From Flavobacterium sp. WC2421 (GTDB lineage: Bacteria; Bacteroidota; Bacteroidia; Flavobacteriales; Flavobacteriaceae), in assembly GCF_040822115.1 (NCBI RefSeq), contig NZ_CP162004.1, forward strand, positions 682,001 through 746,000: 64,000 nucleotides of DNA, written 5' to 3'. Below, piece by piece: positions 9,081-36,000 of this stretch. The stretch's first letter is position 1. Each line of letters begins with the position of its first letter. The notes below the pieces were generated by a model that did no database searches, had not been told where the DNA came from, and saw nothing but the letters and a program-made list of their open reading frames with translations. The translations under genes and the position numbers were made by a program.

Positions 9081-9098
9081 AATAGCTCCTAAAAACAG

Positions 9099-11280: not shown

Positions 11281-11308
11281 AAAAACCGCTTCTTTCGAAG
11301 CGGTTTTT
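11281..11308 (-). terminator. Original terminator of tRNA-Leu, displaced by the element
   Basis: Perfect 11-bp stem (AAAAACCGCTT / AAGCGGTTTTT) with a 6-base loop directly abutting the left att repeat. Before integration it would have lain immediately after the tRNA-Leu 3' end, which now sits 22.6 kb away. The hairpin is symmetric and can work on both strands. Confidence 0.75.
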
Positions 11309-11326
11309 GTACCCGGAGCCGGAGTC
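11309..11326. repeat. Left attachment-site repeat (tRNA-Leu 3' end)
   Basis: The 18 bases GTACCCGGAGCCGGAGTC are identical to 33923-33940, which is the 3' end (acceptor and T-arm) of the intact tRNA-Leu. Sequence identity stops immediately on both sides. This isolated fragment is the second copy expected from site-specific integration into a tRNA gene. Confidence 0.9.
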
Positions 11327-11473
11327 ACACCCTATCATTTCAGCAAAATCACAAAACCTTATAAACATTGACAAAAATTAATTAAAATCTTTGTTTTCAG
11401 TACTTAACGCACACATTAAAACTCAAAAACTATCTAATAAAGACTAACGAAGTTGAAGCATTATCAATAATTG

Positions 11474-11545: not shown

Positions 11546-12877
11546 ATGTTTAAGAAAATGGCAACAGTACAATTTAGAATAAGAAGCAAGGCAAACAAAA
11601 ACGTACCAGTAAAAGTGCGTCTTTTAAATGGTAAAAATACCGACTTAGAGCTAAATACAGGGTTTACTATTAACCCAACAGACTGGAGCGAAACAACAAA
11701 TCGTCCAAAACAAAACAATGCTGGAAACAAGCAAATTTTTAGCGACCTAAAAAAACTAGAATCATTCATTTTTGAACAACTCAACAAAGATCTAGGAAAC
11801 GGAATATTAATAGATTCCTACTGGCTAGAAAATACGATTAAAGAATGTTTTAAACGTGTTGAGAAAACAGATGCAGGATTAATGATCAATCACATTCAGC
11901 ATATAATAGACAGTGCCTCCACACGTAAAGTAAAAGGCCGAAAGAATCTGGGTTTATCAAAAAGCAGAATCAATAGTTATATTAATTCTAAAAATATTTT
12001 GACTGAATATCAAAAACACATAAAAAAACAAATACACTTTCTAGACATTAATAAATCATTTATAGACAAATTCTCTAACTGGTTAATAAATGACAAAAAG
12101 TACTCTATAAATCATTCGGGCGATCAGATTAAGAACCTAAAAGCAGTATGTTCAGACGCCGAAAAAGACAACATCACAGTAAACCACTACGTCAAAAATA
12201 TTGAGGTTTTTTCTGAAAGCAATGAAGATAGATTTATAGTAACACTATCCTTTGCAGAGTTAGAGCAAATAAGAACATGCGAAGAGATTAAGACAGCTGC
12301 ATTAATAAACGCCCGTAACTGGATGTTGCTAGGATGTGAAATTGGACAAAGAGGCGGAGATTTACTCAATATTACAAAAGATAATATTCGTTATAATAAG
12401 GGAAATATGTATTTGGACTTAATACAGCAAAAAACAAATAAAAAAGTAACCATTGGAATAGTAAACCCTCACATTATCGATATTATAGAAAATCATTTCC
12501 CTTATCCAATAAGCACACAAAAACTAAATGTACATATTAAAAAAGTTTGTGAACTTGCCAAAATAGATGAGAGGGTTGAAGGAAAAAAATGGGACGAAGA
12601 GACTAAACGAAAAAAATTAGATTTTTACCCTAAATACGAACTGGTTACAAACCATAGTTTCAGAAGATCTTTTGCAACTAATTACTATAAAAAGATGCAG
12701 ACTTCCATACTAATAGGCATAACAGGACATTCGAAGGAGAGTTTATTTTTGCAATACATAAATGAACGTGAAGACAAAGATGCAAATGCAGATTTATTTA
12801 TAAAAATGTGGGAAATAATGAATAAGGAAGCAGAGGAAAAAGACGAAGACAAACCATCACAACTGAATGTAGTATGA
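11546..12877 (+). CDS. Tyrosine recombinase / integrase
   Basis: Site-specific recombinase of 443 residues that should catalyse insertion and excision of the island at tRNA-Leu. It has an N-terminal arm-DNA-binding domain (about 1-100), a SAM-like core-binding domain (about 110-220) and a C-terminal catalytic domain. Catalytic residues are visible: Arg269 in GQRGGD, His370 and Arg373 in HSFRRS, His395 in GHS, and nucleophile Tyr404 in LFLQYI. It is the first gene inside the left att repeat. Translation could also start at the ATG at 11558 (MATVQFRIRSK), which resembles relatives better. Confidence 0.95.
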   Translation: MFKKMATVQFRIRSKANKNVPVKVRLLNGKNTDLELNTGFTINPTDWSETTNRPKQNNAGNKQIFSDLKKLESFIFEQLNKDLGNGILIDSYWLENTIKECFKRVEKTDAGLMINHIQHIIDSASTRKVKGRKNLGLSKSRINSYINSKNILTEYQKHIKKQIHFLDINKSFIDKFSNWLINDKKYSINHSGDQIKNLKAVCSDAEKDNITVNHYVKNIEVFSESNEDRFIVTLSFAELEQIRTCEEIKTAALINARNWMLLGCEIGQRGGDLLNITKDNIRYNKGNMYLDLIQQKTNKKVTIGIVNPHIIDIIENHFPYPISTQKLNVHIKKVCELAKIDERVEGKKWDEETKRKKLDFYPKYELVTNHSFRRSFATNYYKKMQTSILIGITGHSKESLFLQYINEREDKDANADLFIKMWEIMNKEAEEKDEDKPSQLNVV

Positions 12878-17456: not shown

Positions 17457-20400
17457 CTAGACCCTATACTTCTTAAAATTCTCTGCCTGTTCAAAAATCT
17501 CTTTATAAACCTCGTCTCGATCTACTGGAGGATAACCATTATCAGCTAAGAGGATAATCAAACCTACTTTCAATTCTGCTTTTATATCATCTCGTTTACT
17601 CCAATCCGTATATTGAGCTTTATCATCAACCACTTCTTTGACTTTTTGTGCAAGTGTGATTAGCTTTTCTTCTGGATACACAAAATCATATTTAATTGCC
17701 AAGGCTTTTAAAATGTCGTAGAAGGCTTTTTCTTCTATATCAATTCCTAAATCTTTGAACGAGTCTTTCTCTTTTTTTAAGGCAAAATACAAGTCAATAA
17801 TCTCATCAGTAAAGTCCTCTAGTACCATACTGTTTAACACATCGCTTTCTTTTCGTTCGTTGTATTTGTCCACAATAAATTGCAGGCGTTTTGAAAAATC
17901 AATTCCCATAACTTTATTGATTTTCTGTACGTCTTCAATGGCTTTTGCCAATAATTTTTGCAACAATTTAATCTTGGTGTTGGGAAGTTTAATCTTGTCC
18001 AATTTCGCCAAATAATCTTCTGAGAAAATGTCAACCTCTGTTTCACCAGTTTCTCCTAATTTAAAGATCTCTTCGATTCCTTCACTTTCAATTGCTTCCT
18101 GAATCATATTACGAACTTTATTGTTCATTTGTGCAGTATCTGGAGCAACTCCTTTGGTTAGTTTGAATACAATGGATCTTACAGCCAAGAAGAAATGAAT
18201 TTCATCTCTAACGTGATTCGTAAAAGCGTCACTACCTGAACAAATATCATAGGCCGCTTTTAAACGCTTTACGATATACATAAAACGTTTTTCTATATCT
18301 TGTGTTATCTGGGCAAATTCAGCACCTTTATTTAAAGTGTTCAGTTGTTCCAGAGGTGTGCCGTTGAAATACTTACTATTATCAAATTTATGAAACAGTT
18401 TATGTAATAAATCCAATTGGTCTTTTACTACTACAATAGATTGCTCGATGTCTTCAAAAATGTCAGAATCCTTTTTGTTATAATGGGCTAAAGCTAAATT
18501 CATTTGCTTTTTGATACCAATATAATCCACAATCAAACCTTTGTTTTTTCCTTCGAATTTTCGATTCACTCTTGAAATGGTTTGAATCAAATTGTGACGC
18601 TGGATTGGTTTATCAATATACATCGTATCTAGGAATGGAACATCAAAACCTGTCAACCACATGTCTACTACGATGGCTATTTTGAAATTGGATTTTTCGT
18701 TTTTAAATTGTCGGTCCAACTCTTTACGATCGTCTTTTGTGCCTAGTAAATGATACATGTCTGCTGGGTCATCTTTACCTCGAGTCATAATCATTTTTAT
18801 ACGCTCGATTGGTTTGATCTCTTTTTTCTCTTTATCGGTTAGGATTACACCTTCATCACAAACTTTTATTTCACCCCATTCAGGTCTTAGCTCTAAAACG
18901 TTTTTATACAACTCATAAGCGATGGGTCTGCTGCTGCAAACAAACATAGCTTTCCCTTTTACTGTAGCTCCTTCGGTTATTCGATTCTCATAATGGTTCA
19001 CGAAATCCTCAGCTAAATCCTTTAGTCGTTTAGGATCACCAATGATGGCATTCATTTGCGCCATCACTTTTTTACTCTCTTCAATTTGATGCTCATTACT
19101 TCCTTCCTCAGCACAACGGTTATAGTATTCTTCAATTTCTTGAAGTTTACGATTATTCAATAAAACTTTGGCGGCACGTCCTTCATAAACGATGCGTACC
19201 GTAATTTCATCTGCAACAGATTCCGTCATCGTATAGGCGTCTACCACTTCTCCAAATACATCAATGGTAGCGTCAATAGGAGTTCCTGTAAAACCTACAT
19301 AAGTGGCATTTGGTAAAGAATCGTGAAGGTATTTAGCAAAGCCATAGGTTTTAACCACCCCTTTTTCAGTCACCGTTACTTTTTGATCTAAATTGGTTTG
19401 GCTTCGATGCGCTTCATCTGAAATACATATTACATTGTTTCTATCTGTCAATAATTTAGTGTCCTCATTGAACTTGTGAATCGTAGTTAAGAATACGCCA
19501 CCGCTGTTTCTACCCTGAACTAGTTCCCGAAGATTAGATCGACTTTCTACACTGATAATCGTATCATCACCCACAAAGCCTTTGGCATTCGTAAATTGTC
19601 CCGATAATTGGTCGTCGAGATCCGTTCTATCGGTAATAAGAATAATTGTGGGACTACCGAAATGAGTACTTTTCATCAATAAGCGAGTCAAGAATAGCAT
19701 CGTATAGCTTTTCCCGCATCCTGTGGTACCAAAATAAGTTCCTCCTTTACCGTCGCCTTCTGGACGTTGGTGAATTTTTATGTTTTCAAAAAGTTTTGTG
19801 GCTGCATAATATTGGGGATAGCGACAAACAATCTTTTCGTTTTTCTTAGAGCTATCGGGTAGATAGATAAAGTTGTGAATAATGTCACGCAGTCTTTTAC
19901 GATTGAACATTCCTTGAATTAAGGTGTACATCGCGTCAATACCGTCTACTTCTTTTTTCATGCCTTCTATTTTACGCCAGGCATAAAAGAACTCGTAAGG
20001 GGCAAAGAATGAACCTGCTTTGGTATTCACACCGTCACTAATAACGCAAAAAGCATTGTATTTAAACAAATCAGGAATGTCTCTTTTATATCGAGTGGTT
20101 AACTGGACATAAGCATCGTGAATAGTGGTATTTTCCTGAATGGCAGTTTTGAATTCAAAAACTACCAATGGCAATCCGTTGATGTATAAAATCAAATCAG
20201 GGATACGCATTTCGTATCCTTTAATCGCTAGTTGATTTACAATTTTATAAATATTGTTATCTTCTTCCGAATAGTCTATGAGCTGTATGTAACAATCTTT
20301 TTCGCTGCGGTCTTCTCTTTTTAATAGAAAACCATCCGAAACCATTTTCATAATCGCTTTATTGCTTTCATACAAATCTGATGAAGGCAAGCGTTCTAAA

Positions 20401-20645
20401 TCTCTAACGATAGAATCAATTTCGATTTCGGAAATATTCACTGAAGCATAATTAGATCGCAAATAATTTCTTAAATCATCTGTAATCAGGACTTTTTCAC
20501 TTACTATATGTCCGTAAGTAGATGGTGGTTCTGCAACTCCATTGAATTCTAATTTACGGATGTCACTTCCTACAAGATAAGTCATCTCTTGTTCTTGTAG
20601 TAAGCTGATAAATGCTTGTTCTAATTGTGCTTCGGTAAATTTCAT
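17457..20645 (-). CDS. hsdR: Type I restriction enzyme R subunit
   Basis: Motor and nuclease subunit (1062 residues) of a type I restriction-modification complex, cutting unmodified DNA after ATP-driven translocation. The N-terminal PD-(D/E)xK nuclease shows Asp150 and the Glu164-x-Lys166 motif (PDLILYINGLPLVVFEFKT). The SF2 helicase has Walker A GTTGCGKS (Lys312), DEAH at 410-413, and QTISRVNRKFEGK as motif VI. The C-terminal third is the helical R-M contact region. It is the last gene of the defence operon, 10 bp after the DUF262 gene and separated from hsdM/hsdS by three unrelated genes. No inactivating change was seen. Confidence 0.96.
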   Translation of the reverse strand: MKFTEAQLEQAFISLLQEQEMTYLVGSDIRKLEFNGVAEPPSTYGHIVSEKVLITDDLRNYLRSNYASVNISEIEIDSIVRDLERLPSSDLYESNKAIMKMVSDGFLLKREDRSEKDCYIQLIDYSEEDNNIYKIVNQLAIKGYEMRIPDLILYINGLPLVVFEFKTAIQENTTIHDAYVQLTTRYKRDIPDLFKYNAFCVISDGVNTKAGSFFAPYEFFYAWRKIEGMKKEVDGIDAMYTLIQGMFNRKRLRDIIHNFIYLPDSSKKNEKIVCRYPQYYAATKLFENIKIHQRPEGDGKGGTYFGTTGCGKSYTMLFLTRLLMKSTHFGSPTIILITDRTDLDDQLSGQFTNAKGFVGDDTIISVESRSNLRELVQGRNSGGVFLTTIHKFNEDTKLLTDRNNVICISDEAHRSQTNLDQKVTVTEKGVVKTYGFAKYLHDSLPNATYVGFTGTPIDATIDVFGEVVDAYTMTESVADEITVRIVYEGRAAKVLLNNRKLQEIEEYYNRCAEEGSNEHQIEESKKVMAQMNAIIGDPKRLKDLAEDFVNHYENRITEGATVKGKAMFVCSSRPIAYELYKNVLELRPEWGEIKVCDEGVILTDKEKKEIKPIERIKMIMTRGKDDPADMYHLLGTKDDRKELDRQFKNEKSNFKIAIVVDMWLTGFDVPFLDTMYIDKPIQRHNLIQTISRVNRKFEGKNKGLIVDYIGIKKQMNLALAHYNKKDSDIFEDIEQSIVVVKDQLDLLHKLFHKFDNSKYFNGTPLEQLNTLNKGAEFAQITQDIEKRFMYIVKRLKAAYDICSGSDAFTNHVRDEIHFFLAVRSIVFKLTKGVAPDTAQMNNKVRNMIQEAIESEGIEEIFKLGETGETEVDIFSEDYLAKLDKIKLPNTKIKLLQKLLAKAIEDVQKINKVMGIDFSKRLQFIVDKYNERKESDVLNSMVLEDFTDEIIDLYFALKKEKDSFKDLGIDIEEKAFYDILKALAIKYDFVYPEEKLITLAQKVKEVVDDKAQYTDWSKRDDIKAELKVGLIILLADNGYPPVDRDEVYKEIFEQAENFKKYRV

Positions 20646-20655
20646 AAAAATGTTT

Positions 20656-22446
20656 TTATAACTGCTCGTAATAGACTTTTAATTTATTTGCCATCAATCT
20701 TCTGCGTTCTTCTAAAAATCCTTCATATACCAAGTGACTTGCTTCCTCTAGAATACTTGGAATGTCATTATTAATCAAGTTTTCTTGCAGACTACTTTCA
20801 GAATCCAAAGTGCTTATTCCATTAGTTCCCGCCTGTATTTGAAGTTTTACCTTATCCAAATAATCTTTAGGCGTTAACATCCCCACTTTTATATTGGTAG
20901 CTTGTTCTGTGAATACAAAATTGGCAACTTGATTGTATGCTTTCTGTGGATATCCATTATTCATCAAGTATTTTTTTGGAAAAATATGATGTACATCTCC
21001 TCGTTGTTCTATAAGGCTACTAATTTTCATGCTTTTAGATAAAAAAGCTACCGAATTATTACTTACTTGTGCCGCTAAATACAAGTTGTATGCATTGTTG
21101 TTGACACTGGAAGACTCTAAATCGTTTATGATTCCGAAATCCCAAAAACCGGCACCCAAGTTCGCTTGTTCCATTTGGATTAAATAGGCTGCTATTCCTT
21201 TTTCATTGATTTGTTTGATGTCTTCATCTATTCGAGATTCTGCAGAACCGGAATAACGACCAATTAATATACTCATGACCAACCAACGTTTTACATAGCC
21301 TTGTGTTTCCGCTTCACCCATTCCATCTTCACGCAATTTTAAATACAAAGCATAAGCAAAATTCAAACTGTTTTGAGAAGATATTAATTTCTTACTAATT
21401 AAACCTGTCGATTTAATGATCATTATAAAACGTTGGTAATTAGTCTGATTTACAAAAGCAGATAAGCCTTCGGATAGTTTAGCATAACTGGCTTCGGCAA
21501 TACTTCCTTCATAGGAACGGGTTTCAAAATTCCTTCCTGATAATAAAGCGACTAAATCACTGAATTTACCACGACTAAACTTGAAAGTAAATGCGACTCT
21601 TAATAAAGCTATATAATCAGGTACATACAAATCATCACTGCCTGTAGCCATCCATTTGATCTCTTTGTAGTAATCAGTCTGTGTAAAGGTATTGTCGTTG
21701 TCTTGTATGTGTTTAATGAATCCTTTATCGACTAACAAGCGGCAGAAGTAATCTACCATTTTACGCATGGTGTTGCCGCCATATTTTTCATCAGAAGCGA
21801 TTTTAGACATTACAAAATCGGCATTGCTTAAGACAACGCCTTTTTGATTGATACGGATAAAAATTTCGGTAACGGTATCAATATCTAAACTGGCATCTAA
21901 TTCGATAATACCCACTTGTTTGGTTTTGATTCGTTTTAGGTTTTCAATACGCTCTTCTACTAAATCTTCATCGGCATCAGGATTGTCTTGGCAATATTTC
22001 CGAATGGCTTTAGAAATGGAAATTTCATCATTTACAATTGGGTTAATATTATCTATCCATTCCGGACTTTTTTCGTAGGCTTTATTGAGTACATCAAATT
22101 TTTCTTCAAGAGGATTAAAGGCGATGCGAATGTTTATTTCTTTGTAGTTTTTATCCAAAACACGTTGGCCGACTATGGCAGCTGTTAAAGCTGTAATACG
22201 TTGTTGACCATCTATCAATACTTTTTTGCCAGCAGATAGTTCGCCGTTCTTTAATTTTACATCTGGATTTCTCCAGGTAATTATATAACCCACAGGATAT
22301 CCCTGATATAAGGAATCAATTAAGTCTCTTACTTTGGCACCGTTCCAAACAAAAGGTCTTTGAATTTCAGGAATGGCAATATCGCCAGATTTGATCCAAC
22401 TTAATAATGTTTCTACGGGTTGTTGATGGACGCTATATTTTGCCAT
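20656..22446 (-). CDS. DUF262 / HNH protein (GmrSD-like)
   Basis: A 596-residue protein with the two halves of GmrSD-type defence proteins. The N-terminal DUF262 ParB/sulfiredoxin-like nucleotidase domain has the signature IPEIQRPFVW and IDGQQR (Asp79-Gly-Gln-Gln-Arg83). A C-terminal HNH-like nuclease segment has GDVHHIFPKKY (His486, His487) followed by Asn in a QATNIKVG segment. Relatives restrict modified phage DNA (type IV, GmrSD, BrxU) or act with phosphorothioate systems (SspE). Here it sits between the Panacea gene (39 bp) and hsdR (10 bp), so it is part of the type I operon. Target and NTP requirement are inferred. Confidence 0.9.
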   Translation of the reverse strand: MAKYSVHQQPVETLLSWIKSGDIAIPEIQRPFVWNGAKVRDLIDSLYQGYPVGYIITWRNPDVKLKNGELSAGKKVLIDGQQRITALTAAIVGQRVLDKNYKEINIRIAFNPLEEKFDVLNKAYEKSPEWIDNINPIVNDEISISKAIRKYCQDNPDADEDLVEERIENLKRIKTKQVGIIELDASLDIDTVTEIFIRINQKGVVLSNADFVMSKIASDEKYGGNTMRKMVDYFCRLLVDKGFIKHIQDNDNTFTQTDYYKEIKWMATGSDDLYVPDYIALLRVAFTFKFSRGKFSDLVALLSGRNFETRSYEGSIAEASYAKLSEGLSAFVNQTNYQRFIMIIKSTGLISKKLISSQNSLNFAYALYLKLREDGMGEAETQGYVKRWLVMSILIGRYSGSAESRIDEDIKQINEKGIAAYLIQMEQANLGAGFWDFGIINDLESSSVNNNAYNLYLAAQVSNNSVAFLSKSMKISSLIEQRGDVHHIFPKKYLMNNGYPQKAYNQVANFVFTEQATNIKVGMLTPKDYLDKVKLQIQAGTNGISTLDSESSLQENLINNDIPSILEEASHLVYEGFLEERRRLMANKLKVYYEQL

Positions 22447-22485
22447 TTATTTATACTTTTTCTTTGAATTTAAAATGAATCACTG

Positions 22486-22947
22486 TTATTTCTCTTTGTA
22501 TTTCCTTGCTAAGTTTACTATATCAATTATTTGCCCTTGTGGTGTGTTTAAAACTCCGTAGGTCGAATTAACTAAGTTATTAAGCTCTGTCCAACTATAA
22601 TCTTTGCAATGACCTATAACAAAATCCACAACTTTTTTGGCCTCATCTTTTAAACTCAAATTCTCTTTTTTATTTAAGAAAATTATGACCGTTTGTTCTC
22701 TGTTTTTATCATCAAGTTTTATAGTAACTTCATAATTAGAAGATTCATTATAAATACTTCTTAATGTTTTATAAAATGGGCCGTATTCAGTTTGCATCCA
22801 TTCTATATCAGTTATTTTCTCAAAATTAGTTATTGCATAACGCCACTCTATTAAATAAAGTAATTTCATTACTCTAGAAATAGATAACTGATTTGAATTA
22901 GGGTATTTTATATACAAATAATCTAAAATATTTATTACTCTCTCCAT
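22486..22947 (-). CDS. Panacea (SocA/DUF4065) domain protein, putative antitoxin
   Basis: A 153-residue single-domain protein. The N-terminal layout (ILDYLYIKYP, SRVMKLLYLIEWRYA, WMQTEYGPFYKTLRSIY) matches the Panacea fold, formerly DUF4065, found in SocA and in a broad class of antitoxins that neutralise unrelated toxins. The immediately preceding gene (2 bp away, same strand) encodes a membrane protein, which is a plausible toxin partner since several Panacea partners are membrane-active. It is enclosed in the type I operon between hsdS and the DUF262 gene. Antitoxin function is inferred from family and pairing. Confidence 0.8.
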   Translation of the reverse strand: MERVINILDYLYIKYPNSNQLSISRVMKLLYLIEWRYAITNFEKITDIEWMQTEYGPFYKTLRSIYNESSNYEVTIKLDDKNREQTVIIFLNKKENLSLKDEAKKVVDFVIGHCKDYSWTELNNLVNSTYGVLNTPQGQIIDIVNLARKYKEK

Positions 22948-22949
22948 AA

Positions 22950-23846
22950 TTAAAATCCTTTTTCTAGTGCTTTATTAATATTTGGAAAATCCCAATCAAT
23001 TTTTTCAACAAAAGCTACTAATCTTTTTTCCTCATCTTGATTTAATGTAAACTCTATTTCAACTTCTTCAAAAGCCCTATCATTTTTACTTTCTATTACA
23101 ATAATTGAAGTTTGTTCGAGATTCATTAAATCCTTAAAAGCTTTTATATAGAAGCTCCTGCTTTTCATTTTCATATTCCAAACCGTCTCCTCTTCAATTT
23201 GAGCAAGATCATTAACAACTTTGTAATAACTTCTCCTAAATTTCGTCCTTTTGCTGTCGGCAACTGGAATCCCTGAGTTTTTAAAAAATTTAATTTCTTG
23301 CCAAGCTTTGAAAATTAATCCTTCTTTCTTATAACTAGTACGACTTCTCCTTTTTAACTCAGGATTTGAAGAGTAACGTCCTAATACATAAAATTCGTCA
23401 TTAATTAGTTTATATAAACTAATTCTTTCATTACTTCCCAATTTCATTTTTTCAAAAAGATAAGCTAAATGAATTTCTACAATTTCAATAGAATTATTAT
23501 TAATTTTTGAAATTTGACTTTCTAAGTTTTGAATTTTAATATCTAATTCATTTTTTTCATTATTTAATAAATCAATTTCATTAGTTTTATTTTTTTCTAT
23601 TTTTTCAATAGTTTTTGAATTGGAAACCTGCTTAACAATATGCATAATACTAGAAAGTATTATAAAACAAAACAAAATCCAACCAAGTGAATTAGAATGT
23701 ATTTTATGCCAAAATATTTCACGATTCAAACTAAACAATATACCAACAATAGCAAAAATTAAAGTATTTAATCCATTCCAATAGGGCAATCCATGTTCAT
23801 ATATATGGTTCGAAAAAATTCCGAATTTTGTGTTCTCTATTCCCAT
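22950..23846 (-). CDS. Membrane protein with coiled coil, possible Panacea partner
   Basis: A 298-residue protein not matched to a family. Two transmembrane helices near the N terminus (about 24-42 and 52-70) are followed by a coiled coil (about 78-120, Asn/Glu/Lys/Ile-rich) and a cytosolic domain of about 170 residues. That domain contains LYKLINDEFYVLGRYS and a basic RRSRTSYKKEG stretch, faintly like a GAF-type sensor. It is 9 bp after hsdS and 2 bp before the Panacea gene. It could be the toxin of a Panacea pair or a membrane sensor; the sequence does not decide. Confidence 0.75.
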   Translation of the reverse strand: MGIENTKFGIFSNHIYEHGLPYWNGLNTLIFAIVGILFSLNREIFWHKIHSNSLGWILFCFIILSSIMHIVKQVSNSKTIEKIEKNKTNEIDLLNNEKNELDIKIQNLESQISKINNNSIEIVEIHLAYLFEKMKLGSNERISLYKLINDEFYVLGRYSSNPELKRRSRTSYKKEGLIFKAWQEIKFFKNSGIPVADSKRTKFRRSYYKVVNDLAQIEEETVWNMKMKSRSFYIKAFKDLMNLEQTSIIVIESKNDRAFEEVEIEFTLNQDEEKRLVAFVEKIDWDFPNINKALEKGF

Positions 23847-23855: not shown

Positions 23856-25052
23856 CTAGTAATTAGTTTCTATTCCACTCTCAACCCTTGTCATTTTTGC
23901 CAACAATAACTCCTTCAATTCCTCTAACTTTAGATTTTCTAAAACTTTTATAATTAGTTTACTATCTATTAATTCTACAGTTGAATTAAATTTCGCAAAC
24001 ACCTCATTGTCAGGAATTAACACTGGAATTGATTGAATATTGTACAAAGGCAACTTTCCTTGAACTCCACCTACTGTACTTTCTTCAATCACTCTTTTAC
24101 CAATTTCTGAATTTAAATAATGATAGAGAAACTTTGCATTTACAAACTCTATATTATTTATTTTCATACAGTTTTCAGTAAGATTTGCATTATTTAAGCT
24201 TTCGTTAATAATATTAACCACACCTATTGTACCAACAATAGAAATAATTACATCATTTGTATTAGCAGTGTATCTTGAAATTTGAGCTTGAATTTCATGT
24301 GACACATACTGAAATTTTGAATTTAATACTAAAAACTTAGTTTTTTTCATGTCTGCAACCTTGATATAAGGTCTACCAATTTTGAAGTCATTCAATTCAT
24401 CACCTTTCGGTAGGCGCTTTCCTCCTTTAATACTTGAAAATCCACCTAAATTTAAAAACCTCCATCCTTCAGGTAAATTTTCAAAATCTATTTCATCCAC
24501 AAACCATTGCTTGTAAATAGCCTGAGCGGTATCTTCGAGTTTAGTAATGAGTTGGTTGTTTAAGGCAATACGGTTTTGAATAATGTTGTATTCTCGAACG
24601 ATTTCTTGTTGTTTTTCAGGAGAAGGAATAGGTAAATAACAATCGTTTAAAGCATCCCAATCAAATCCACCTCTAATCGCACTATCGCATTTAAAATCGG
24701 CATATCTGTCAAATTCGGATCTTCTAAACCACATCATCAAATATTTTGGATTGAGTTCATTCTCGTCATTAACTTCAAAAACGGTGTACGCAGGAGAAAC
24801 CAAGACTGGCTCTTCATCAATTTTCAAAACAACTGGAAATTTATGAACTCGAATAACAGACATAAAATCGCAAGAAAATTGATGTTTATTCACAACTTTA
24901 TAGACACTCATATCAGTTCCTATAATATTAGACGTTGAAACTCTAAATTCTTTGGTCATACTAAGACCAACTAATTTTGAAACTTTTAAATCTCTATTTC
25001 TATTTTCTACTTTATGAATATAGTCTCCTAATCTTTTATAACTTGATTTCAT
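23856..25052 (-). CDS. hsdS: Type I restriction enzyme S (specificity) subunit
   Basis: Specificity subunit of 398 residues that sets the bipartite recognition sequence. Two target-recognition domains are present (about 1-155 and 200-350), each followed by a conserved helix: LPIPSPEKQQEIVREYNIIQ and a C-terminal FNSTVELIDSKLI segment. The ATG overlaps the hsdM stop by 17 bases, indicating translational coupling. The recognition sequence cannot be predicted from sequence alone. No inverted partial hsdS copies were found nearby, so phase variation by inversion is not indicated. Confidence 0.95.
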   Translation of the reverse strand: MKSSYKRLGDYIHKVENRNRDLKVSKLVGLSMTKEFRVSTSNIIGTDMSVYKVVNKHQFSCDFMSVIRVHKFPVVLKIDEEPVLVSPAYTVFEVNDENELNPKYLMMWFRRSEFDRYADFKCDSAIRGGFDWDALNDCYLPIPSPEKQQEIVREYNIIQNRIALNNQLITKLEDTAQAIYKQWFVDEIDFENLPEGWRFLNLGGFSSIKGGKRLPKGDELNDFKIGRPYIKVADMKKTKFLVLNSKFQYVSHEIQAQISRYTANTNDVIISIVGTIGVVNIINESLNNANLTENCMKINNIEFVNAKFLYHYLNSEIGKRVIEESTVGGVQGKLPLYNIQSIPVLIPDNEVFAKFNSTVELIDSKLIIKVLENLKLEELKELLLAKMTRVESGIETNY

Positions 25053-26604
25053 AACCTAATTCTTTGAAAACGGTTAATAAATCAGTTTTCGATTTTGTTT
25101 CGGCCTGCAATAGTTCACCAAACTCTGCCTGTAAAGTTTGCATTTTTTCATCAAAATCAATATTCTCATCACGGTTAACGAATTCAATGTATTTACTTGG
25201 CACCAAGGAAAAATCTTTGGAGGTAACCTCTTCTAAAGAAGCGGAATAAGAAAACTCAGGAACATCGTGATATTTTGATAAATCTGTTTGCCAATTGTGG
25301 TAGGCTTGAGTGATTTCAAGTATATTCTCTTCAGAAAATTGCGTAAATTTCTTTTCAAAAGGAATTCCTTTTTCTCTTAAATCCAAGAATAAAATTTCGT
25401 TTTGGCGGTCTCTATAGTTTCTGGTTTCATCCGGCAATTGAACTGTTCTAGCTTTTTTATTTTTGTTCAAAATCCAAAGCGTTACACTAATGTCAGTGGT
25501 ATAAAACATAGATCGTGGTAAAATTACAATGGCTTCCACAATATCATTTTCTATCAGTTTTCTACGAATTTTATACTCTTCACCACCGCCAGAAAGTGCA
25601 CCATTGGCCAAGATAAATCCTGCCACACCGTTTTCGGAAAGTTTAGAAACCATATTCAAAATCCAAGCATAATTAGCATTGCTAGTAGGAGGGACGTCAT
25701 AGCCTCTCCAGCGAGGATCGTCTACCAATTCATCAGCAGCTCTCCAGTCTTTTTGGTTGAACGGAGGATTAGCCATAATGTAATCGGCTTTCAAATCGGG
25801 ATGTTGGTCACGACCAAAAGTGTCGGCCGCTACATCACCTAAATTGGCCGCAATCCCACGAATGGCCAAGTTCATTTTGGCCAGTTTGTAGGTTGTAGAA
25901 GTGTATTCTTGTCCGTAGATAGAAATCTCTTTTTTGTTACCGTGATGGTTTTCTATAAACTTAATAGATTGCACAAACATACCTCCAGAACCACAAGCGG
26001 GATCATAGATAACCCCTTTGTAGGGTTCAATCATTTCGGCAATGAGGTTTACAATACTTTTAGGGGTATAGAATTCACCTTTCCCTTTTCCTTCTGCCAA
26101 GGCAAACTTGCTCAGAAAATATTCATATACACGACCCACAATATCGGTCTGTTTGTCCTTGATGGTGTCAATGTTGTTGATCGTGTCTAACAAAGCAGCT
26201 AACTTACTCACATCCATATTAAGACGAGAGAAGTAGTTGTCAGGCAAAGCGCCTTTCAGGGCAGGATTGTTTTTCTCGATAGTATGCAAAGCGGTATCGA
26301 TTTTTAAGGCAATATCATTTTGCTTGGAGTTTTCAATAACAAATGACCAACGGGATTCTTCGGGTAAAAAGAAAATGTTAGACATATTGTAGAATTCCTT
26401 CATTTCCAGGTATTTCTCTTTTCCATCAGCGATCAGTTCCTTGCGACGTTCTTCAAACTTGTCACTGGCAAATTTCAGGAATATCAACCCTAACACTACG
26501 TGCTTGTATTCAGATGATTCTACTGTTCCTCGCAGTTTATTTGCCGAATCCCAAAGGGTTTCTTCTATGCTTTTTTCTTTCTTTGCTTTAGCTTTTATGG
26601 CCAT
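25036..26604 (-). CDS. hsdM: Type I DNA adenine methyltransferase M subunit
   Basis: Methylation subunit of 522 residues that adds N6-methyl groups to adenine using S-adenosylmethionine. It has the helical HsdM_N region (ETLWDSANKLRGTVESSEYK), SAM-binding motif I DPACGSGG (Asp201) and catalytic motif IV NPPF (Asn279). It begins 2 bp after the receiver-domain gene and overlaps hsdS. A second, separate methyltransferase domain is encoded two genes upstream in the kinase fusion, so the operon holds two HsdM-type domains of clearly different sequence. Confidence 0.97.
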   Translation of the reverse strand: MAIKAKAKKEKSIEETLWDSANKLRGTVESSEYKHVVLGLIFLKFASDKFEERRKELIADGKEKYLEMKEFYNMSNIFFLPEESRWSFVIENSKQNDIALKIDTALHTIEKNNPALKGALPDNYFSRLNMDVSKLAALLDTINNIDTIKDKQTDIVGRVYEYFLSKFALAEGKGKGEFYTPKSIVNLIAEMIEPYKGVIYDPACGSGGMFVQSIKFIENHHGNKKEISIYGQEYTSTTYKLAKMNLAIRGIAANLGDVAADTFGRDQHPDLKADYIMANPPFNQKDWRAADELVDDPRWRGYDVPPTSNANYAWILNMVSKLSENGVAGFILANGALSGGGEEYKIRRKLIENDIVEAIVILPRSMFYTTDISVTLWILNKNKKARTVQLPDETRNYRDRQNEILFLDLREKGIPFEKKFTQFSEENILEITQAYHNWQTDLSKYHDVPEFSYSASLEEVTSKDFSLVPSKYIEFVNRDENIDFDEKMQTLQAEFGELLQAETKSKTDLLTVFKELGYEIKL

Positions 26605-26606
26605 AA

Positions 26607-27854
26607 TTATAATTTGATAATTTCTTTAATGTGTAATTTTGTTCCGTCAGGGCTTGGCTCTGTTCTTACGTTTAGGTTGTCCCCAAGGGAAATATGATTC
26701 TGCATAACCATATTTGGTTGGATACTAAGGCTATTTGAACCGTTATTCGGTTGGAAGGTGCCATATCCATTTTCGGCTATTCTAGTGACATGACCTTCAT
26801 GCCATTCCATTGCATTTTGATTGTTGTTGTTTTCTACCAGGTCTATCCATAAACTTTCGTTTGCCTCCATGCTGCTGTTGTCATTTAGATAGTTTTGATA
26901 CCATACCAGCAAATCGCAGACAGTAAATGTTAACTGGTAAAGTAGGTATGGCGTTTTTATTTGTGCCCTATAATCTTGATAATCCATGTTTTTTGCTGGA
27001 TCCACATCCGATGTATGTGAGGCGGCTCCTGTGATGAATAATAAATTTTTGATGTTATCAGCCATTAATTTTGAAAAATGAGTTTTCGAACACCTAACGT
27101 TATTGGGTTTACAATGTTTGGTTGGTTCACCTGCTAAAAACAAACTAGAATCTGTTAGATTAAGTTTGCCATCCTTACCAATACAATTCTCATGTAATAT
27201 ATTATACTTAACAGCGTCTCTAAAAACATATTCAACATATTTTCTAAGTTGTGTAAAATAGAGTGAAGGTTCTAAATCACTTCCATTCGATTGAATTGAT
27301 TTGATTATGGTTACAAGATGATTTATATCTTCAGCAGGAACATTTATTTTTTTTGCGATGTGAAAAACCTGTCTATGTTGAATCTCAATTTTAGTTTGTT
27401 CCAAGTTATCGATTTCTTTTATAATGTCTTGAATTAACTCTTTTTCATGCAATGTTTTAGTATAGTAGTCAAATTCTATTCTACCAAATTTTATATTATT
27501 CTGGTATTCCAAAATAGGTTCCATAAATTCCTGATTTGTCAAATTTCTTTGAGCTCCAGTATAAATAAACCAAGGGATTATTCTGTCACCCAATAATTCA
27601 CTTAAGAATTTTAAAGAATAGAATAAACCAGTATTACTTTGCTTTTCTTCATCAATATCTGATTTTTTGTACCCAGTAGCATCTAATATAACTGCCTGGT
27701 ATTCATAACTGGAATCATTTTTTAATAATTCCATTCCTTGCACATGATATTTTTCACTAACCAATTCAATATTGGCCATTTTAGCCATTTTCTTGATTTG
27801 CTCCAATGGCTGACCATTATGTTGATCATCTATCAATAAGACTTTATAGCTCAT
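26607..27854 (-). CDS. Receiver-domain response regulator with C-terminal OB-like domain
   Basis: A 415-residue protein if started at 27854 (MSYKVLLIDD), where the ATG overlaps the kinase stop by 11 bases; an ATG at 27881 would add nine residues. The N-terminal receiver has all canonical residues: Asp9-Asp10, phosphoacceptor Asp58 (AVILDAT), Thr99 (FIYTG) and Lys133. A helical middle domain (about 150-335) contains FITGAASHT, weakly like HEPN/DUF4145-type helices. Residues about 354-415 resemble a cold-shock/OB fold (GHVTRIAENGYGTF). It lacks a standard HTH output, so its target is probably RNA, single-stranded DNA or a protein. It is presumably phosphorylated by the preceding kinase fusion. 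Confidence 0.8.
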   Translation of the reverse strand: MSYKVLLIDDQHNGQPLEQIKKMAKMANIELVSEKYHVQGMELLKNDSSYEYQAVILDATGYKKSDIDEEKQSNTGLFYSLKFLSELLGDRIIPWFIYTGAQRNLTNQEFMEPILEYQNNIKFGRIEFDYYTKTLHEKELIQDIIKEIDNLEQTKIEIQHRQVFHIAKKINVPAEDINHLVTIIKSIQSNGSDLEPSLYFTQLRKYVEYVFRDAVKYNILHENCIGKDGKLNLTDSSLFLAGEPTKHCKPNNVRCSKTHFSKLMADNIKNLLFITGAASHTSDVDPAKNMDYQDYRAQIKTPYLLYQLTFTVCDLLVWYQNYLNDNSSMEANESLWIDLVENNNNQNAMEWHEGHVTRIAENGYGTFQPNNGSNSLSIQPNMVMQNHISLGDNLNVRTEPSPDGTKLHIKEIIKL

Positions 27855-30531
27855 AAGATAATTTGTATTTAAATTCAACACCTACTTCAAAAGTATAACC
27901 ATTAGCTTCATCAATGGCATAATTATTTTGAAATACTTTACCATTATTGCGCTCGGTAAGAACTTTAACGATATGACCTCCTTTGCCAGAATTAGACGTA
28001 GATCCTGCTTTCCCTCCATCAGCAAAATAATCCATAGCATTAATTTTTGAAGGTTTCCCATTATTTAAAACAGCAATTGTAACCATCTCTTCTTTAGAAT
28101 CTAATGACAACGCCATTTTAATCTTGTTGACTTGATTTGAACCCTTAAAACCACCATGTTTAATTGCGTTATCGAAAATATTTGTAAAAACTCTTTGCAA
28201 ATCTTTTTTGTAAACTGATATAATAAGTTCCTTTATATCAAAATCAATCTTAATTTTATCAATATCAGTACAATCAATTTCAAATAAATTACCATTGCTC
28301 TTCAACTGATTATCACAGAATTCTTTGATGAATACTAGAACATCAATATTTTCTTTTATAGAAGCATTTTCTGAAGTGTCATATAAATCGGAAAGAATAA
28401 CTGCTAATTTTTGCACACTAGTATAAATATCTTTGATAGACGAATGAACGGTGTCATTACTGTCCTGATCTACAATATTATTAAACAGCTCCGGATTTGC
28501 ATCCGCAAACATTTCTAAAGTAACTATTTGCCCTTTGAGATTTAATAATTCTCCATTACGAATATCATGTAATTTCCATTGAAAATCATTCATACGTTCT
28601 TTTAACAAAGTATCAATCGTCGCTTGAAGCTGAAAGGTTTCAATTTTGCCTTTATCAGATTGAATTCTGGCTCCTTCAGTTAATGCCCTTTGGAGGATTA
28701 ATGAACCTTGTGTATCAAAACGTGGAATAACGACTTTGATTCGCATAAAATCCTGCTTTCTTAAATTTGGCATTACCGTCCCTAAAGAAAAAGAATCAAC
28801 TTGCTTGGTTACATAATCGCTGCTTAGTTGCTGTATTAAGTATGATAAATCAACAATGTCATTATTGATAGTAAATGCATCAATATCTGGAGATATAAAG
28901 ACAGGATAGTCTAAACTAGCATCAATAAAGCTAGGTTTTAGTTTATTAAAGCGTTTAGAAATCAACAGAGCAGGAGCGGTTAATTTATTAAAAACTCTAC
29001 TAACGATATCCTCTGCCAAGGAGTCGATTGCAATAGTATAAAGAAATGAATCGTTTAATAAATCTGAAATTTTAACTAATTTTCCAGATTCATTGTCAGT
29101 TCTAACTCTGGGAACTGACGTTAATACATTTGATAATTCAACTAATGTAGATCCTTCAGGAACTTCAAAATCGTCAATTGTTGTTAAATATCTCGGTAAA
29201 TTGAAATTGAAATCGTTTTCCGCGATCTCAGAATAAGGTACAATTCTTGAAAATTCATTCTCTTCTTTACCATTCTCCCATACATCTGCTATATGGTTGA
29301 TGTTTTCCGGCATCAGTTTATTTATAAACCTTTCAGATAAATATTCTTTACTTGCGTCGATAATAAAAATTGAATCTCTTTTAAAATCCGGTTTATTCTC
29401 AAGTATAATTATAGAACTAGGTATTCCTGTACCATATAATAATTTTGCCGGTAATCCAATTATGCCTTTTATGAAGCCGGATTCCAATAGATATTTACGA
29501 ATATTTCTTTCAGATCCTCCTCTAAAAAGGACGCCGTTTGATACGACGCAGGCAGCTACACCATTTTCCTTCAAAGATTTAACGATATGCAGTAAAAAAG
29601 CAAAGTCACCGCTATTTGTGGGAGGTATTCCAGTAGTGGAATTCCATCTATCGAACATATCACTATGGGGGTCTGTAGACCAATTGTGGACATTAAAAGG
29701 AGGATTAGAAACAACATAATCAAACTTTTTAAGTTGAGTTTGAATATGGTTGGATTTATCCATGGAAACATCTAAAAAGCTGGGAAAATTTAAAACATCG
29801 CGATTCTCCAAATTATAATCAGTAATTCCATGAAAAAGGAAAGTCAATTTTGCCACGAAGATGTTTTCTGGAATTCTTGTTTCTCCATATATAGTCACAT
29901 CATCACCACCTTCTTTAAAAACTGAAAATAAAAGACTCCCTGTTCCGCAAACAGGATCATAAATGCTTTTGACACTATTATCTTTTTTGAAACCAATTAG
30001 TTTTGCTATTAAAATACCAATTTCATTGGGTGTGGCTGTTCCAGCAGAATACTTGACGCTATTTTCAATAAAAGATTGGTTTACGTGCTCAAATGTGTCA
30101 ACCCAGATGGTATTTCTTGTATTATCGGACGAAGCATGTCTGTTAGAATAATCTTCAATTAAAAGAATAATATTACCCAGAATAATATCTGAATCATGGT
30201 CTTTTCCTAAAACGGAGGCGCTATTAAAATCAATGAAATTTATTACACCATCGAAAATAGGGTTCTCCCTAGCAATAGAATTTAATCGCTTATTTATTTC
30301 ATTACCAATTGAAGTTCTTTCTTCATAACATAATTTTAAAATAGATTGAAAATCACAATCGGCGGGAATCGTTATATTCAAACCTGTATTAGTGTTTTTA
30401 TTATCACTAATGTGTCTTAAAAACACCAATGTTAAAATATAGTTTTTTAGACTATCGACCTCAATTTTACCCCGGAGTTTATTTAATAAATTCCAAAAAT
30501 CACTATTCCAACTATTTTTACTCTCAGACAT
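27844..30531 (-). CDS. Type I methyltransferase-specificity protein fused to a histidine kinase
   Basis: An 895-residue four-part protein. Residues 1-130: HsdM_N-like helices (FWNLLNKLRGKIEVDSLKNY). Residues 150-430: N6-adenine methyltransferase with motif I DPVCGTG (Asp192) and motif IV NPPF (Asn276). Residues 450-640: an HsdS-like target-recognition region ending in GTVMPNLRKQDFMRIKVVIP. Residues 645-895: a histidine kinase with H-box LHDIRN (His655), N-box NIFDNAIKH (Asn788), and G-boxes NNG (823-825) and GKGGH (849-853). All catalytic motifs of both enzymes are intact. It overlaps the receiver gene by 11 bases. The layout suggests a kinase controlled by DNA binding or methylation state. 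Domain identities are clear; the sensing role is inference. Confidence 0.88.
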   Translation of the reverse strand: MSESKNSWNSDFWNLLNKLRGKIEVDSLKNYILTLVFLRHISDNKNTNTGLNITIPADCDFQSILKLCYEERTSIGNEINKRLNSIARENPIFDGVINFIDFNSASVLGKDHDSDIILGNIILLIEDYSNRHASSDNTRNTIWVDTFEHVNQSFIENSVKYSAGTATPNEIGILIAKLIGFKKDNSVKSIYDPVCGTGSLLFSVFKEGGDDVTIYGETRIPENIFVAKLTFLFHGITDYNLENRDVLNFPSFLDVSMDKSNHIQTQLKKFDYVVSNPPFNVHNWSTDPHSDMFDRWNSTTGIPPTNSGDFAFLLHIVKSLKENGVAACVVSNGVLFRGGSERNIRKYLLESGFIKGIIGLPAKLLYGTGIPSSIIILENKPDFKRDSIFIIDASKEYLSERFINKLMPENINHIADVWENGKEENEFSRIVPYSEIAENDFNFNLPRYLTTIDDFEVPEGSTLVELSNVLTSVPRVRTDNESGKLVKISDLLNDSFLYTIAIDSLAEDIVSRVFNKLTAPALLISKRFNKLKPSFIDASLDYPVFISPDIDAFTINNDIVDLSYLIQQLSSDYVTKQVDSFSLGTVMPNLRKQDFMRIKVVIPRFDTQGSLILQRALTEGARIQSDKGKIETFQLQATIDTLLKERMNDFQWKLHDIRNGELLNLKGQIVTLEMFADANPELFNNIVDQDSNDTVHSSIKDIYTSVQKLAVILSDLYDTSENASIKENIDVLVFIKEFCDNQLKSNGNLFEIDCTDIDKIKIDFDIKELIISVYKKDLQRVFTNIFDNAIKHGGFKGSNQVNKIKMALSLDSKEEMVTIAVLNNGKPSKINAMDYFADGGKAGSTSNSGKGGHIVKVLTERNNGKVFQNNYAIDEANGYTFEVGVEFKYKLSYEL

Positions 30532-30557: not shown

Positions 30558-30594
30558 CAAATGTAAATTGCATTAGTGCATTACACGTGCATTA
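30558..30594 (-). promoter_or_regulatory. Promoter and three-fold operator of the defence operon
   Basis: On the minus strand TACATTTG (30558-30565) is a -7 box 26 bases before the kinase-fusion start. Upstream, where the -33 region should lie, are three direct copies of TAATGCA (plus-strand TGCATTA at 30569-30575, 30577-30583 and 30588-30594). The third overlaps the WYL stop codon. Repeats covering the spacer between -33 and -7 fit a repressor site, most simply for the adjacent WYL protein. Confidence 0.55.
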
Positions 30595-31590
30595 ATAATT
30601 ATTTTTCATTTTATCGATTCTATCTTCTAGTTTTTCAACTAAAAATTGTGGTTTAATTAGTCTGATTTTTTCTCCAAAAGACAAAATCAATGTTTCCAAC
30701 TCATAGTTTGGTATTAGGTTTAAGTGAATGAAATACTTACCATCTTGTTCTTTAATTTTCTGTGAGCCGTGAATAGGTTTGGTTTTTAAGTAAGGGACCA
30801 GAGACTGGTTAGCTTCAATTACGATCTCTTGGACTTCATCATTTGATACAGTAACTCCCACAACATCTTCGAAATATTCATTAAAGTCGATTTCAGTCTC
30901 TATATATTCCTGAGAAGTTTCTTGTATACTTTCTATTCTGTCTAAAGCTAAATTTGTTATAGTTTCATAATCATTGGACTTCCCAAATAAAAACCAACGC
31001 ATATTATATTGCTTTAAATAATAGGGATGTAGGGAAAGGGTAGTAGCAGTATCTGTTTTGAAATTCTTATATTCAATATTTAAAACCTTTTTATAAAGAA
31101 TTGCATTATAAAGTTCCGGAATGTATTCCAATCCCTTCAAGTATTCATTTTGTTCAAAACTGATAATAATCTCCTTTTGTTGTTTCAAGTTAAATGTAGA
31201 TTCTAATCTTGTATTTAGCTCATTGATCCAATTGTATTGTGGTAATCCTTTGAAGCGGTCTAATGTTAACAATGCTTCCCTTAATTGATTTGCTTCTGTT
31301 TCATTCAAGGGTTGGTTTGAAATCGAAAAAGAAGGGTTTTGATACCTATAGAAAACTCTTCTCCCTTCTTTGTCTTTTGTGAGTTCAACATTCCAACCTT
31401 GTTCACTTTCCATGAATCTTAGATCATCATAGAGTTGTCTTTTTTTAATCCCTTCTTCATTTCCGGAATACTCATAAATTGCTTTATTACATTCTTCGAT
31501 AAGATCTTCAATAGCGTATTTTCTTCCAGTATTACGGAAGCACTTATCTAAAGTTTGGTATCGGATAATAGCATGTTTATTTGTAGACAT
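30592..31590 (-). CDS. WYL-domain transcriptional regulator
   Basis: A 332-residue regulator: an N-terminal winged helix (about 1-85; RYQTLDKCFRNTGRKYAIED and a KKRQLYDDLRFMESEQGW segment), a central WYL domain (about 165-235, YLKQYNMRWFLFG) and a C-terminal WCX-like domain. WYL proteins of the BrxR/CapW type control defence islands and respond to nucleic-acid signals. It is the first gene of the minus-strand cluster, and its stop codon lies inside a repeat array upstream of the kinase-fusion promoter. A role as repressor of the operon is inferred from that position. Confidence 0.9.
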   Translation of the reverse strand: MSTNKHAIIRYQTLDKCFRNTGRKYAIEDLIEECNKAIYEYSGNEEGIKKRQLYDDLRFMESEQGWNVELTKDKEGRRVFYRYQNPSFSISNQPLNETEANQLREALLTLDRFKGLPQYNWINELNTRLESTFNLKQQKEIIISFEQNEYLKGLEYIPELYNAILYKKVLNIEYKNFKTDTATTLSLHPYYLKQYNMRWFLFGKSNDYETITNLALDRIESIQETSQEYIETEIDFNEYFEDVVGVTVSNDEVQEIVIEANQSLVPYLKTKPIHGSQKIKEQDGKYFIHLNLIPNYELETLILSFGEKIRLIKPQFLVEKLEDRIDKMKNNY

Positions 31591-31927
31591 GTAAGAATTT
31601 AGTTCTGAATTTTATATAACACAATAATACAACAAAGCATAGGAATTAGAATGAGGAAAGCCGTAAAGGATTGCCTTATTTTAGATTAATTCCATGCTCT
31701 TTAATTTGTTTTGATTGCATTTGAGTAAAGAAACGATATTTTGTAGGAATTTACTATACCCAGTTTTAGTGATATTCTAAATGATTGTTAAGATAAGGAT
31801 TCGCTTAATTTATATGTTTTATGGGGTTTTAAGGTCTGGATTTATTTTTAATTTATATATTTGAATATCATTACGAACTACACTTAAGTAGTAGCAACCT
31901 GCGACCACACGCGAAGGTGCTGAAACA
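31591..31927. other. Intergenic region between WYL gene and right-end genes
   Basis: No gene or RNA recognised. On the + strand a -7 box TATATTTG (31856-31863) lies 64 bases before the ATG at 31928, so this region holds the promoter for the three right-end genes. The WYL promoter must also lie here, but no clear box was found for it. Confidence 0.5.
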
Positions 31928-32335
31928 ATGAGCCTAAACAAAGGAAAAATTATGTTTAAAACACCTCGGTTTATTTCCAAATTCAATACTGCTTTAAAAA
32001 CAAAAAAGGCTGAAAAAAATCTGTTTAAGATTTATTTAGACCTCGATTTCCAGTTTTATAGTGTCGATTTTGACGAGCTCCACGAAGTCAACTATGTATA
32101 TGACGAGAAGGAGTTGTACGACCAAAGTATCGCTGGTATTACAACGTTTTTAAAATTTCAAAAACCCAATGGAAGGGATTATGAGTTTTACCCTGATATC
32201 TATTATACACAACTAGGTAAAAATCAAAAATATGCTATTATCACGTATTCTTTTACAGGAGCTTATTCTACTAAAGCAGTTGCAATGGTTCAGAGACTGC
32301 GATTAGATACTATAGAGATATTTAAACATTCCTAA
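31928..32335 (+). CDS. Unknown small protein, right-end gene 1
   Basis: A 135-residue protein without recognised domain; an internal ATG at 31958 (MFKTPRF) is an alternative start. The central part is acidic and aromatic (YLDLDFQFYSVDFDELHEVNYVY, split by turns) and the end is basic. No signal peptide or transmembrane helix is evident. It is followed 8 bp later by another unknown gene, and a TATATTTG promoter box lies upstream, so the two are probably one transcript. It is the first gene of the region between the defence operon and the right att site. Confidence 0.65.
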   Translation: MSLNKGKIMFKTPRFISKFNTALKTKKAEKNLFKIYLDLDFQFYSVDFDELHEVNYVYDEKELYDQSIAGITTFLKFQKPNGRDYEFYPDIYYTQLGKNQKYAIITYSFTGAYSTKAVAMVQRLRLDTIEIFKHS

Positions 32336-33876: not shown

Positions 33877-33920
33877 AAAAAGCCTGTAATACCTGATAAA
33901 CAAGTGATTACAGACTTTTT
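33877..33920 (-). terminator. Island-borne terminator for tRNA-Leu
   Basis: Stem AAAAAGCCTGTAAT / ATTACAGACTTTTT. Its single imperfect pair is C-A on the + strand but G-U on the minus strand, so it folds best in the tRNA's transcript. It starts 3 bases after the tRNA 3' end and ends in a T-run on that strand. It replaces the native terminator now stranded at 11281-11308. Confidence 0.75.
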
Positions 33921-33922
33921 AA

Positions 33923-33940
33923 GTACCCGGAGCCGGAGTC
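33923..33940. repeat. Right attachment-site repeat, inside tRNA-Leu
   Basis: The 18 bases are identical to 11309-11326 and cover the acceptor 3' strand and part of the T-arm of the intact tRNA-Leu gene. Confidence 0.9.
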
Positions 33941-34003
33941 GAACCGGCACGGTTTCCCACAGGTGTTTGAGACCAGCGCGTCTACCAATTCCGCCATCCG
34001 GGC
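33924..34003 (-). tRNA. tRNA-Leu(CAA)
   Basis: Class II tRNA of 80 nt. The acceptor stem GCCCGGA pairs with TCCGGGT (one G-U pair) and the discriminator is A. The D-arm contains AATTGGTAGACGC, the anticodon loop CTCAAAC gives anticodon CAA (33967-33969 on the complement), a long variable arm follows, and the T-loop is GTTCGAC. CCA is not encoded, common in Bacteroidetes. It reads UUG codons. Its 3' end is the integration site of the island on its downstream side. Confidence 0.95.
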
Positions 34004-35944: not shown

Positions 35945-36000
35945 GTTCTTCACTTTTTTTATTTTTAGAAGCACAACTACCTACTTTCATCAACAATTCA

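Follow-up and report, generated by a model that had tools for sequence, protein, structure and literature searches.

The window analysed here, i.e., the whole stretch of 64,000 nucleotides from Flavobacterium sp. WC2421 (contig NZ_CP162004.1, positions 682,001 to 746,000; the host genome is one contig of 3.83 Mb), carries a row of defence genes in which a sensor histidine kinase built on a type I DNA methyltransferase stands next to the gene of its putative response regulator. On the minus strand the row reads WYL-domain regulator, sensor, response regulator, hsdM, hsdS, a 298-aa protein, a SocA/Panacea-type protein, a GmrSD_N protein and hsdR (Table 1). The initial annotation of this DNA, made from the letters alone, had placed the pair ahead of hsdM, hsdS and hsdR; this order holds, with three further genes lying between hsdS and hsdR. 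The WYL regulator upstream of the pair had been overlooked.

Table 1. Coordinates of the sensor, the response regulator, the accompanying gene row and the island ends within the window.
Feature	Position	Strand	Evidence
WYL-domain regulator, first in the row	30592..31590	-	Pfam WYL 1.3e-12, WCX 3.1e-8
Sensor, 895 aa: HsdM_N + N6-adenine methyltransferase + single target recognition domain (TRD) + histidine kinase	27844..30531	-	
HsdM_N helices, residues 10-122	30166..30504	-	Pfam PF12161 5.9e-10
N6-adenine methyltransferase domain, residues 145-452	29176..30099	-	
S-adenosylmethionine (SAM) motif I DPVCGTG, residues 192-198	29938..29958	-	sequence
Catalytic motif IV NPPF, residues 276-279	29695..29706	-	sequence
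HsdS-like TRD, residues 456-606, conserved RFNKLKP at 527-533	28714..29166	-	
Dimerisation/phosphotransfer helices, residues 607-725	28357..28713	-	structure model
Putative phospho-acceptor His655 (LHDIRN)	28567..28569	-	H-box alignment
HATPase catalytic domain, N/G1/G2 boxes, residues 726-890	27862..28356	-	Pfam PF02518 1.5e-7
Response regulator, 415 aa counted from its ATG	26607..27854	-	
Receiver domain, residues 1-150; putative phospho-acceptor Asp58 at 27681-27683	27405..27854	-	
Helical output domain, residues 155-340; conserved R204, E208, R212, H221, C224, TGAASHT	26835..27392	-	
Cold-shock/S1-like OB (oligonucleotide/oligosaccharide-binding) domain, residues 350-415	26610..26807	-	profile and fold matches
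hsdM belonging to the operon's type I system	25036..26604	-	Pfam N6_Mtase 1.6e-102, HsdM_N 7.1e-23
hsdS	23856..25052	-	Pfam Methylase_S 2.8e-19
298-aa protein	22950..23846	-	no convincing family match
SocA/Panacea-type protein	22486..22947	-	Pfam PF13274 1.5e-12
GmrSD_N (DUF262) protein	20656..22446	-	Pfam PF03235 2.2e-34
hsdR	17457..20645	-	NCBIfam TIGR00348 1.9e-144, above cut-off
att-like repeat, left island end	11304..11331	.	direct repeat with 33918-33945
Tyrosine recombinase of the island	11546..12877	+	Pfam Phage_integrase 1.9e-7, Phage_int_SAM_5 5e-9
att-like repeat, right island end, at the tRNA-Leu 3' end	33918..33945	.	
tRNA-Leu(CAA)	33923-34003	-	

The architecture described in the initial annotation, a single 895-residue protein joining HsdM_N helices, a methyltransferase domain, a recognition domain and a histidine kinase, is borne out by Pfam, by motifs and by folds. 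Both the HsdM_N and the N6_Mtase domains are recognised in the window sensor, and the HATPase that had been proposed as a check is present in its C-terminal part above the cut-off. The structure model predicts two helices in the phosphotransfer block (residues 635-678 and 695-719; predicted local distance difference test, pLDDT, of 55-78 for the block), and it matches PDB 7eew, an Ocr-bound methyltransferase, which speaks for the fold and not for binding. Searches with the whole models were dominated by the methyltransferase in the sensor and by the receiver in the response regulator. At the level of sequence and model it is strongly supported that the sensor is a complete and soluble histidine kinase placed on a methyltransferase-type input. 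The response regulator contains the receiver residues named earlier (D9/D10, D58, T99, and K133), and D58, K133 and T/S99 are kept in 127/127 receivers, though Pfam alone misses the receiver and finds no family in this protein at E<=1. The output had been called helical plus OB-like, and the protein indeed is helical in its middle part and ends in a cold-shock/S1-like domain, for which a CspC-like fold was matched in a viral library (best E 1.1e-3); S1CSD-TOTE-2 (PF22707) was matched in 4/21 relatives (best 4.4e-5), the OB region of the window protein having no Pfam match of its own. A search with the middle domain gave 224 matches, and among the 120 listed most are receiver proteins of 380-410 aa; some of seven shorter matches start late and others end early. 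The closest named relative of the response regulator is from a Flavobacterium (96%).

The two proteins are consistently linked. Genome contigs searched with the response regulator gave 20 loci, all with a sensor-type gene directly upstream (20/20), and the TRD-kinase half of the sensor was found in 12/395 genomes of the window's phylum, its own included (E<=1e-25). The neighbourhood search that had been suggested earlier places the response regulator gene directly downstream of the fusion in 12/12 of these genomes; ten of them overlap the 11 genomes found with the response regulator profile in the same 395, and the two which that profile missed also have its gene directly downstream. Both searches scored up to four candidates in each genome, which makes the genome counts lower bounds. 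In 27/27 loci measured, the two genes share a strand and are separated by -80 to +5 nt. Computed from pairwise identities and without tree correction, the divergence of the sensor follows that of the response regulator with a Pearson r of 0.84 (n=28); the values are 0.39 (n=21) for sensor and hsdM, 0.40 (n=20) for sensor and WYL protein, 0.48 (n=21) for response regulator and hsdM, and 0.30 (n=20) for response regulator and WYL protein. Judged by gene order and co-divergence, sensor and response regulator are one evolving unit. The eleventh genome of the response regulator profile (L040:2259-5474) has a short response regulator and upstream of it a kinase-like protein without methyltransferase (HATPase_c 0.0026, below cut-off); both belong to a type III CRISPR locus that also encodes Csm4, a RAMP protein, Cas6 and a Csx1-like protein (CARF below cut-off). 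No copy of the system was found in a plasmid scan by protein, and a viral scan gave one locus, L048, which is probably the region of locus L009 called viral, because its genes have the same lengths and starts as the L009 genes.

What the sensor family keeps and what it loses was counted in 65 sensors, comprising the window copy, 39 search matches and 28 loci, minus L040 and two duplicates; the set was not further de-replicated, and 63 of its members cover the methyltransferase region. The kinase box patterns (H, the asparagine corresponding to N788, G1 and G2) are present in 65/65, a histidine lies within the aligned H-box stretch in 65/65, in the same column in 22/22, and the H, N and G columns are invariant in 22/22 aligned sensors. 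Of the methylation motifs, [ND]PP[FYW] is kept in 31/63, DPx[CST]GxG in 27/63 and both in 22/63. The function common to the family thus cannot depend on catalysis, since these motifs are so often lost; in the window copy, which keeps both, and in its clade, catalysis may persist, and this sensor may still methylate DNA. The intact DPVCGTG and NPPF could also suggest an ordinary type I methyltransferase that acquired a non-functional kinase tail, an explanation that would predict decay of the kinase, whereas the family shows the reverse pattern of universal kinase boxes and frequently missing methylation motifs; with the receiver gene adjoining the sensor in every genome of the phylum search that has one, we regard it as highly improbable.

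The initial annotation had considered that the sensor reads DNA modification. In its explicit form this would mean that the sensor shares its recognition site with the operon's HsdS, signals whether that site is methylated and adjusts restriction accordingly. This fits a window sensor that has a TRD, whose SAM and catalytic motifs are intact and whose gene lies ahead of hsdM, hsdS and hsdR. For 20 loci (190 pairs), we compared the sensor with the genes in the hsdM and hsdS positions, picked by place; some of the hsdS-position genes have no BLAST match to the window HsdS, and identity of HsdS refers to the whole protein, so the comparison of TRD with HsdS is indirect. Loci L002 and L003 have sensors that are 91% identical (TRD 95%), followed by hsdM genes with 22% and hsdS genes with 16% identity, and hsdM falls below 35% in 8 of the 21 locus pairs in which the sensors are at least 40% identical. 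Because near-identical sensors precede unrelated hsdM and hsdS genes, the sensor is, by this comparison, portable between restriction systems. Where hsdM identity is at least 70% (14 pairs), the mean identity is 48.1 for the TRD vs 35.3 for HsdS, the TRD being higher in 11/14; L011 and L033, for instance, share 90% in hsdM, 86% in the TRD and 36% in HsdS. The TRD does vary, which counts in favour of such a modification sensor: in 7/21 pairs whose sensors share at least 40% identity the methyltransferase domain is the better conserved of the two, in the 65-80% band the TRD stands at 69 vs 75 for that domain, and in the exceptional pair L015/L016 it is 34% vs 47% for HsdS. In most pairs, though not in all, the TRD of the sensor varies less than the HsdS of the operon, and on balance the comparison speaks against a sensor tuned to the methylation site of its own operon. 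Relatives whose neighbours are Druantia III or McrBC genes, and those in which no restriction gene was recognised downstream, likewise fit poorly with it. Of the earlier overall reading, a methyltransferase-based sensor kinase with a receiver before a restriction operon stands, and the sensing of the operon's own modification is weakened, as sensors move between restriction systems and about half of them lack the methylation motifs; we now hold it to be improbable.

The genomic company of the pair was followed across 30 loci with the full pair (the window, L001-L020, L033, L035-L039, L041, L091, and L092), with hsdM labels and absences assigned by BLAST to the window proteins at E<=1e-3 and with some stretches stopping at a contig edge (L006, L041). 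An hsdM-type gene lies downstream in 22/30 (truncated at the end of the contig in L006), Druantia III genes DruH and DruE stand behind a WYL-sensor-receiver triad in L001:11503-20425, McrB/McrC genes follow the pair in L041, and AAA_15 and UvrD genes follow it in L038. The WYL gene is directly beside the sensor in 20/30 loci, divergent in five. Directly upstream of the sensor, L016 has a gene for a helicase of 1969 aa, the size of DruE, and L091:2446-5328 encodes a NACHT/STAND-like protein of 960 aa directly upstream of the pair. No restriction gene was recognised directly downstream of the pair in 5/30 loci (L012, L018, L020, L091, and L092), where family-library scans covered few of the downstream genes. 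These five loci would suit an autonomous defence system, akin to the phosphorelay-triggered effector that the initial annotation had offered as its second idea, in which the receiver protein itself is the effector, e.g., a phosphorylation-switched RNA-cleaving or RNA-binding toxin, and the restriction operon a mere neighbour in the island. Such an effector is further suggested by R204, E208, R212, H221, C224 and H280 of the middle domain, each kept in 119 to 126 of 127 and together looking like an active site, and by a faint likeness of this domain to DUF4145, which we take to be a HEPN-type family, in a profile comparison (P 0.0063, probability 6%). This likeness is not significant, however: the middle domain gave P 0.52 against Abi_C, presumably HEPN too, and 0.078 against an unrelated hsdM, with Abi_C and DUF4145 giving 5.7e-5 one way and 0.025 the other way, and an earlier HEPN comparison with a poorly built sequence set had given a probability of 0.3%, so that a HEPN identity counts as no more than a lead. 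Around its conserved histidines the middle domain shows no R-x4-6-H, the motif of HEPN proteins. A WYL gene and restriction genes in one row suggest regulation instead, and two of the five loci have defence genes on the other side of the pair, hsdR in L018 and hsdM with the NACHT protein in L091. We therefore consider an autonomous effector unlikely, if a possibility to be taken seriously.

The reading that we prefer, with a probability of roughly 55%, is a portable cytosolic two-component system for immunity, with a methyltransferase-shaped sensor binding DNA or a DNA mimic and a regulator acting at the RNA level or as an effector. Its computed basis is the domain make-up, the phosphotransfer residues, the linkage, the co-divergence, the exchange of restriction systems and the loss of methylation motifs; the ligand, the direction of the signal, the phosphotransfer itself and the RNA-level action, as we infer them, would be as follows. 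The HsdM and half-HsdS parts, dimerised via the kinase helices, would look much like the M2S core of type I enzymes and would bind a target, most plausibly DNA in a certain state or with a certain sequence and possibly a DNA-imitating phage protein. Binding would change the autophosphorylation of His655, the phosphoryl group would pass to Asp58 of the response regulator, and its helical and cold-shock/S1-like parts would then work on RNA or serve as an effector, which would either adjust the defence operon next to the pair or produce a direct response of the cell. The WYL regulator, a frequent companion of the pair, probably controls transcription of the operon. Several observations weigh against this proposal. 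RNA-level action is suggested by one likeness, that to cold-shock/S1 domains, and the short response regulators (292-316 aa; L037-L041, L091, and L092) do not have this part, so that RNA binding by the OB domain cannot be the family's only output; no known fold was recognised in the middle domain. Pfam recognises the ATPase part alone in the L020 sensor, missing its methyltransferase part, and misses the ATPase part in that of L018. The loci with no restriction gene recognised directly downstream and the intact methylation motifs of the window sensor also count here, as do the correlations of the sensor with hsdM and WYL protein, which exceed all 2000 permutations (the weaker correlations generally exceed nearly all) and indicate that hsdM and WYL genes are not freely exchanged.

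Phage proteins Ocr and ArdA imitate DNA, block restriction and bind M2S complexes of differing specificity. The sensor could accordingly be conceived as a decoy restriction enzyme guarding against anti-restriction inhibitors or foreign DNA, with the receiver protein launching a second, RNA-level defence once restriction is suppressed, a notion that arises because catalysis is dispensable, no matching with HsdS is evident and several DNA-targeting defences stand behind the sensor; we judge it rather unlikely. The idea of a DNA-mimic ligand also draws on the available excerpts of PMC7261183 and PMC10149784 and on the fold match to 7eew. All in all, the pair appears to be a hitherto undescribed element that alerts or controls bacterial immunity. 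If the preferred two-component reading is true, bacteria wire DNA recognition directly into a phosphorelay, which would open a route to ask how immune operons learn of foreign DNA or of an anti-restriction protein and type I restriction, Druantia III and McrBC loci would gain a controller that is portable. The experimental handle is small, consisting of one histidine, one aspartate and few candidate ligands.

The defence row of the window is flanked by two att-like repeat copies of 28 nt that are 86% identical, the left one adjoined by the tyrosine recombinase and the right one lying at the 3' end of tRNA-Leu; given this repeat pair, the tRNA-Leu and the recombinase around the row, it is, on these landmarks, carried by an integrated island of about 22.6 kb at tRNA-Leu. 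Within the row, the SocA/Panacea and GmrSD_N genes (20656-22947) sit between hsdS and hsdR, and BLAST matches of the GmrSD_N protein recur among several related loci. Inside the island, a SAM-I/IV riboswitch at 31863-31960 (+; 53.4 bits vs cut-off 41.1) is divergent from the WYL gene and overlaps the start of an open frame at 31928; as a conserved part of the system it was rejected, none reaching the gathering score in seven related loci scanned. Flavo-1 RNAs lie at 9011-9086 and 35994-36076, on opposite strands, one on each side of the island.

We know of no described histidine kinase with a DNA-methyltransferase fold as input, as the initial annotation had also held. Detocs applies two-component logic to phage defence with a fusion of receiver (REC) and purine nucleoside phosphorylase as effector; the response regulator here differs, showing no Pfam family and hence no nucleoside phosphorylase match at E<=1. 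In the open-licence literature no earlier description of an HsdM-TRD-kinase fusion with this partner was found: the available excerpts of PMC8011034, PMC13373217 and PMC8523701 name no methyltransferase as input, those of PMC12839542, PMC7159879, PMC12255303, PMC12458937, PMC2292703 and PMC7641849 likewise do not describe the fusion, and a restriction review (PMC12707154) contains none of five kinase/receiver terms. The HEF_HK/Response_reg_2 systems (PF19191/PF19192), the closest relatives in print, resemble the pair in combining a soluble kinase and an adjacent receiver near restriction-modification genes, and the sections available report that 83.4% of the HEF_HK kinases have an N-terminal HATPase_c_3 (paraMORC-like) domain and that the linked genes are mainly type II (PMC8011034); the window sensor differs by its HsdM-TRD input. 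Neither PF19191 nor PF19192 was matched in sensor or response regulator at E<=1, a PF19192 search gave none in the own genome and 2/150 genomes of the genus, and kinship of the response regulator with Response_reg_2 found no support, a profile comparison with two such proteins giving a probability below 1%. In Marinomonas, CRISPR-Cas expression is influenced by a kinase together with a response regulator whose output is of the LuxR type, according to the part of the study available (PMC8523701). BrxR and CapW are WYL proteins that likewise head defence gene rows (excerpts of PMC12255303 and PMC13373217); here, unlike there, the WYL gene precedes a kinase-receiver pair, the likeness being one of description and not of direct comparison. 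From type I HsdM/HsdS (M2S) the sensor differs by the kinase fused behind the TRD and by catalytic motifs that are not family-wide. Portable kinase-based controllers of immune operons already exist in CapK/CapS, which share with the present pair a GHKL-type kinase and a partner upstream of diverse immune operons (PMC13373217, in excerpt). They differ in that CapK is anti-sigma-factor-like, CapS a STAS-winged helix-turn-helix (wHTH) repressor, neither STAS nor winged HTH being found in our response regulator (no Pfam family at E<=1), and the sensor, in the parts of that paper available, is not a methyltransferase, as it is here.

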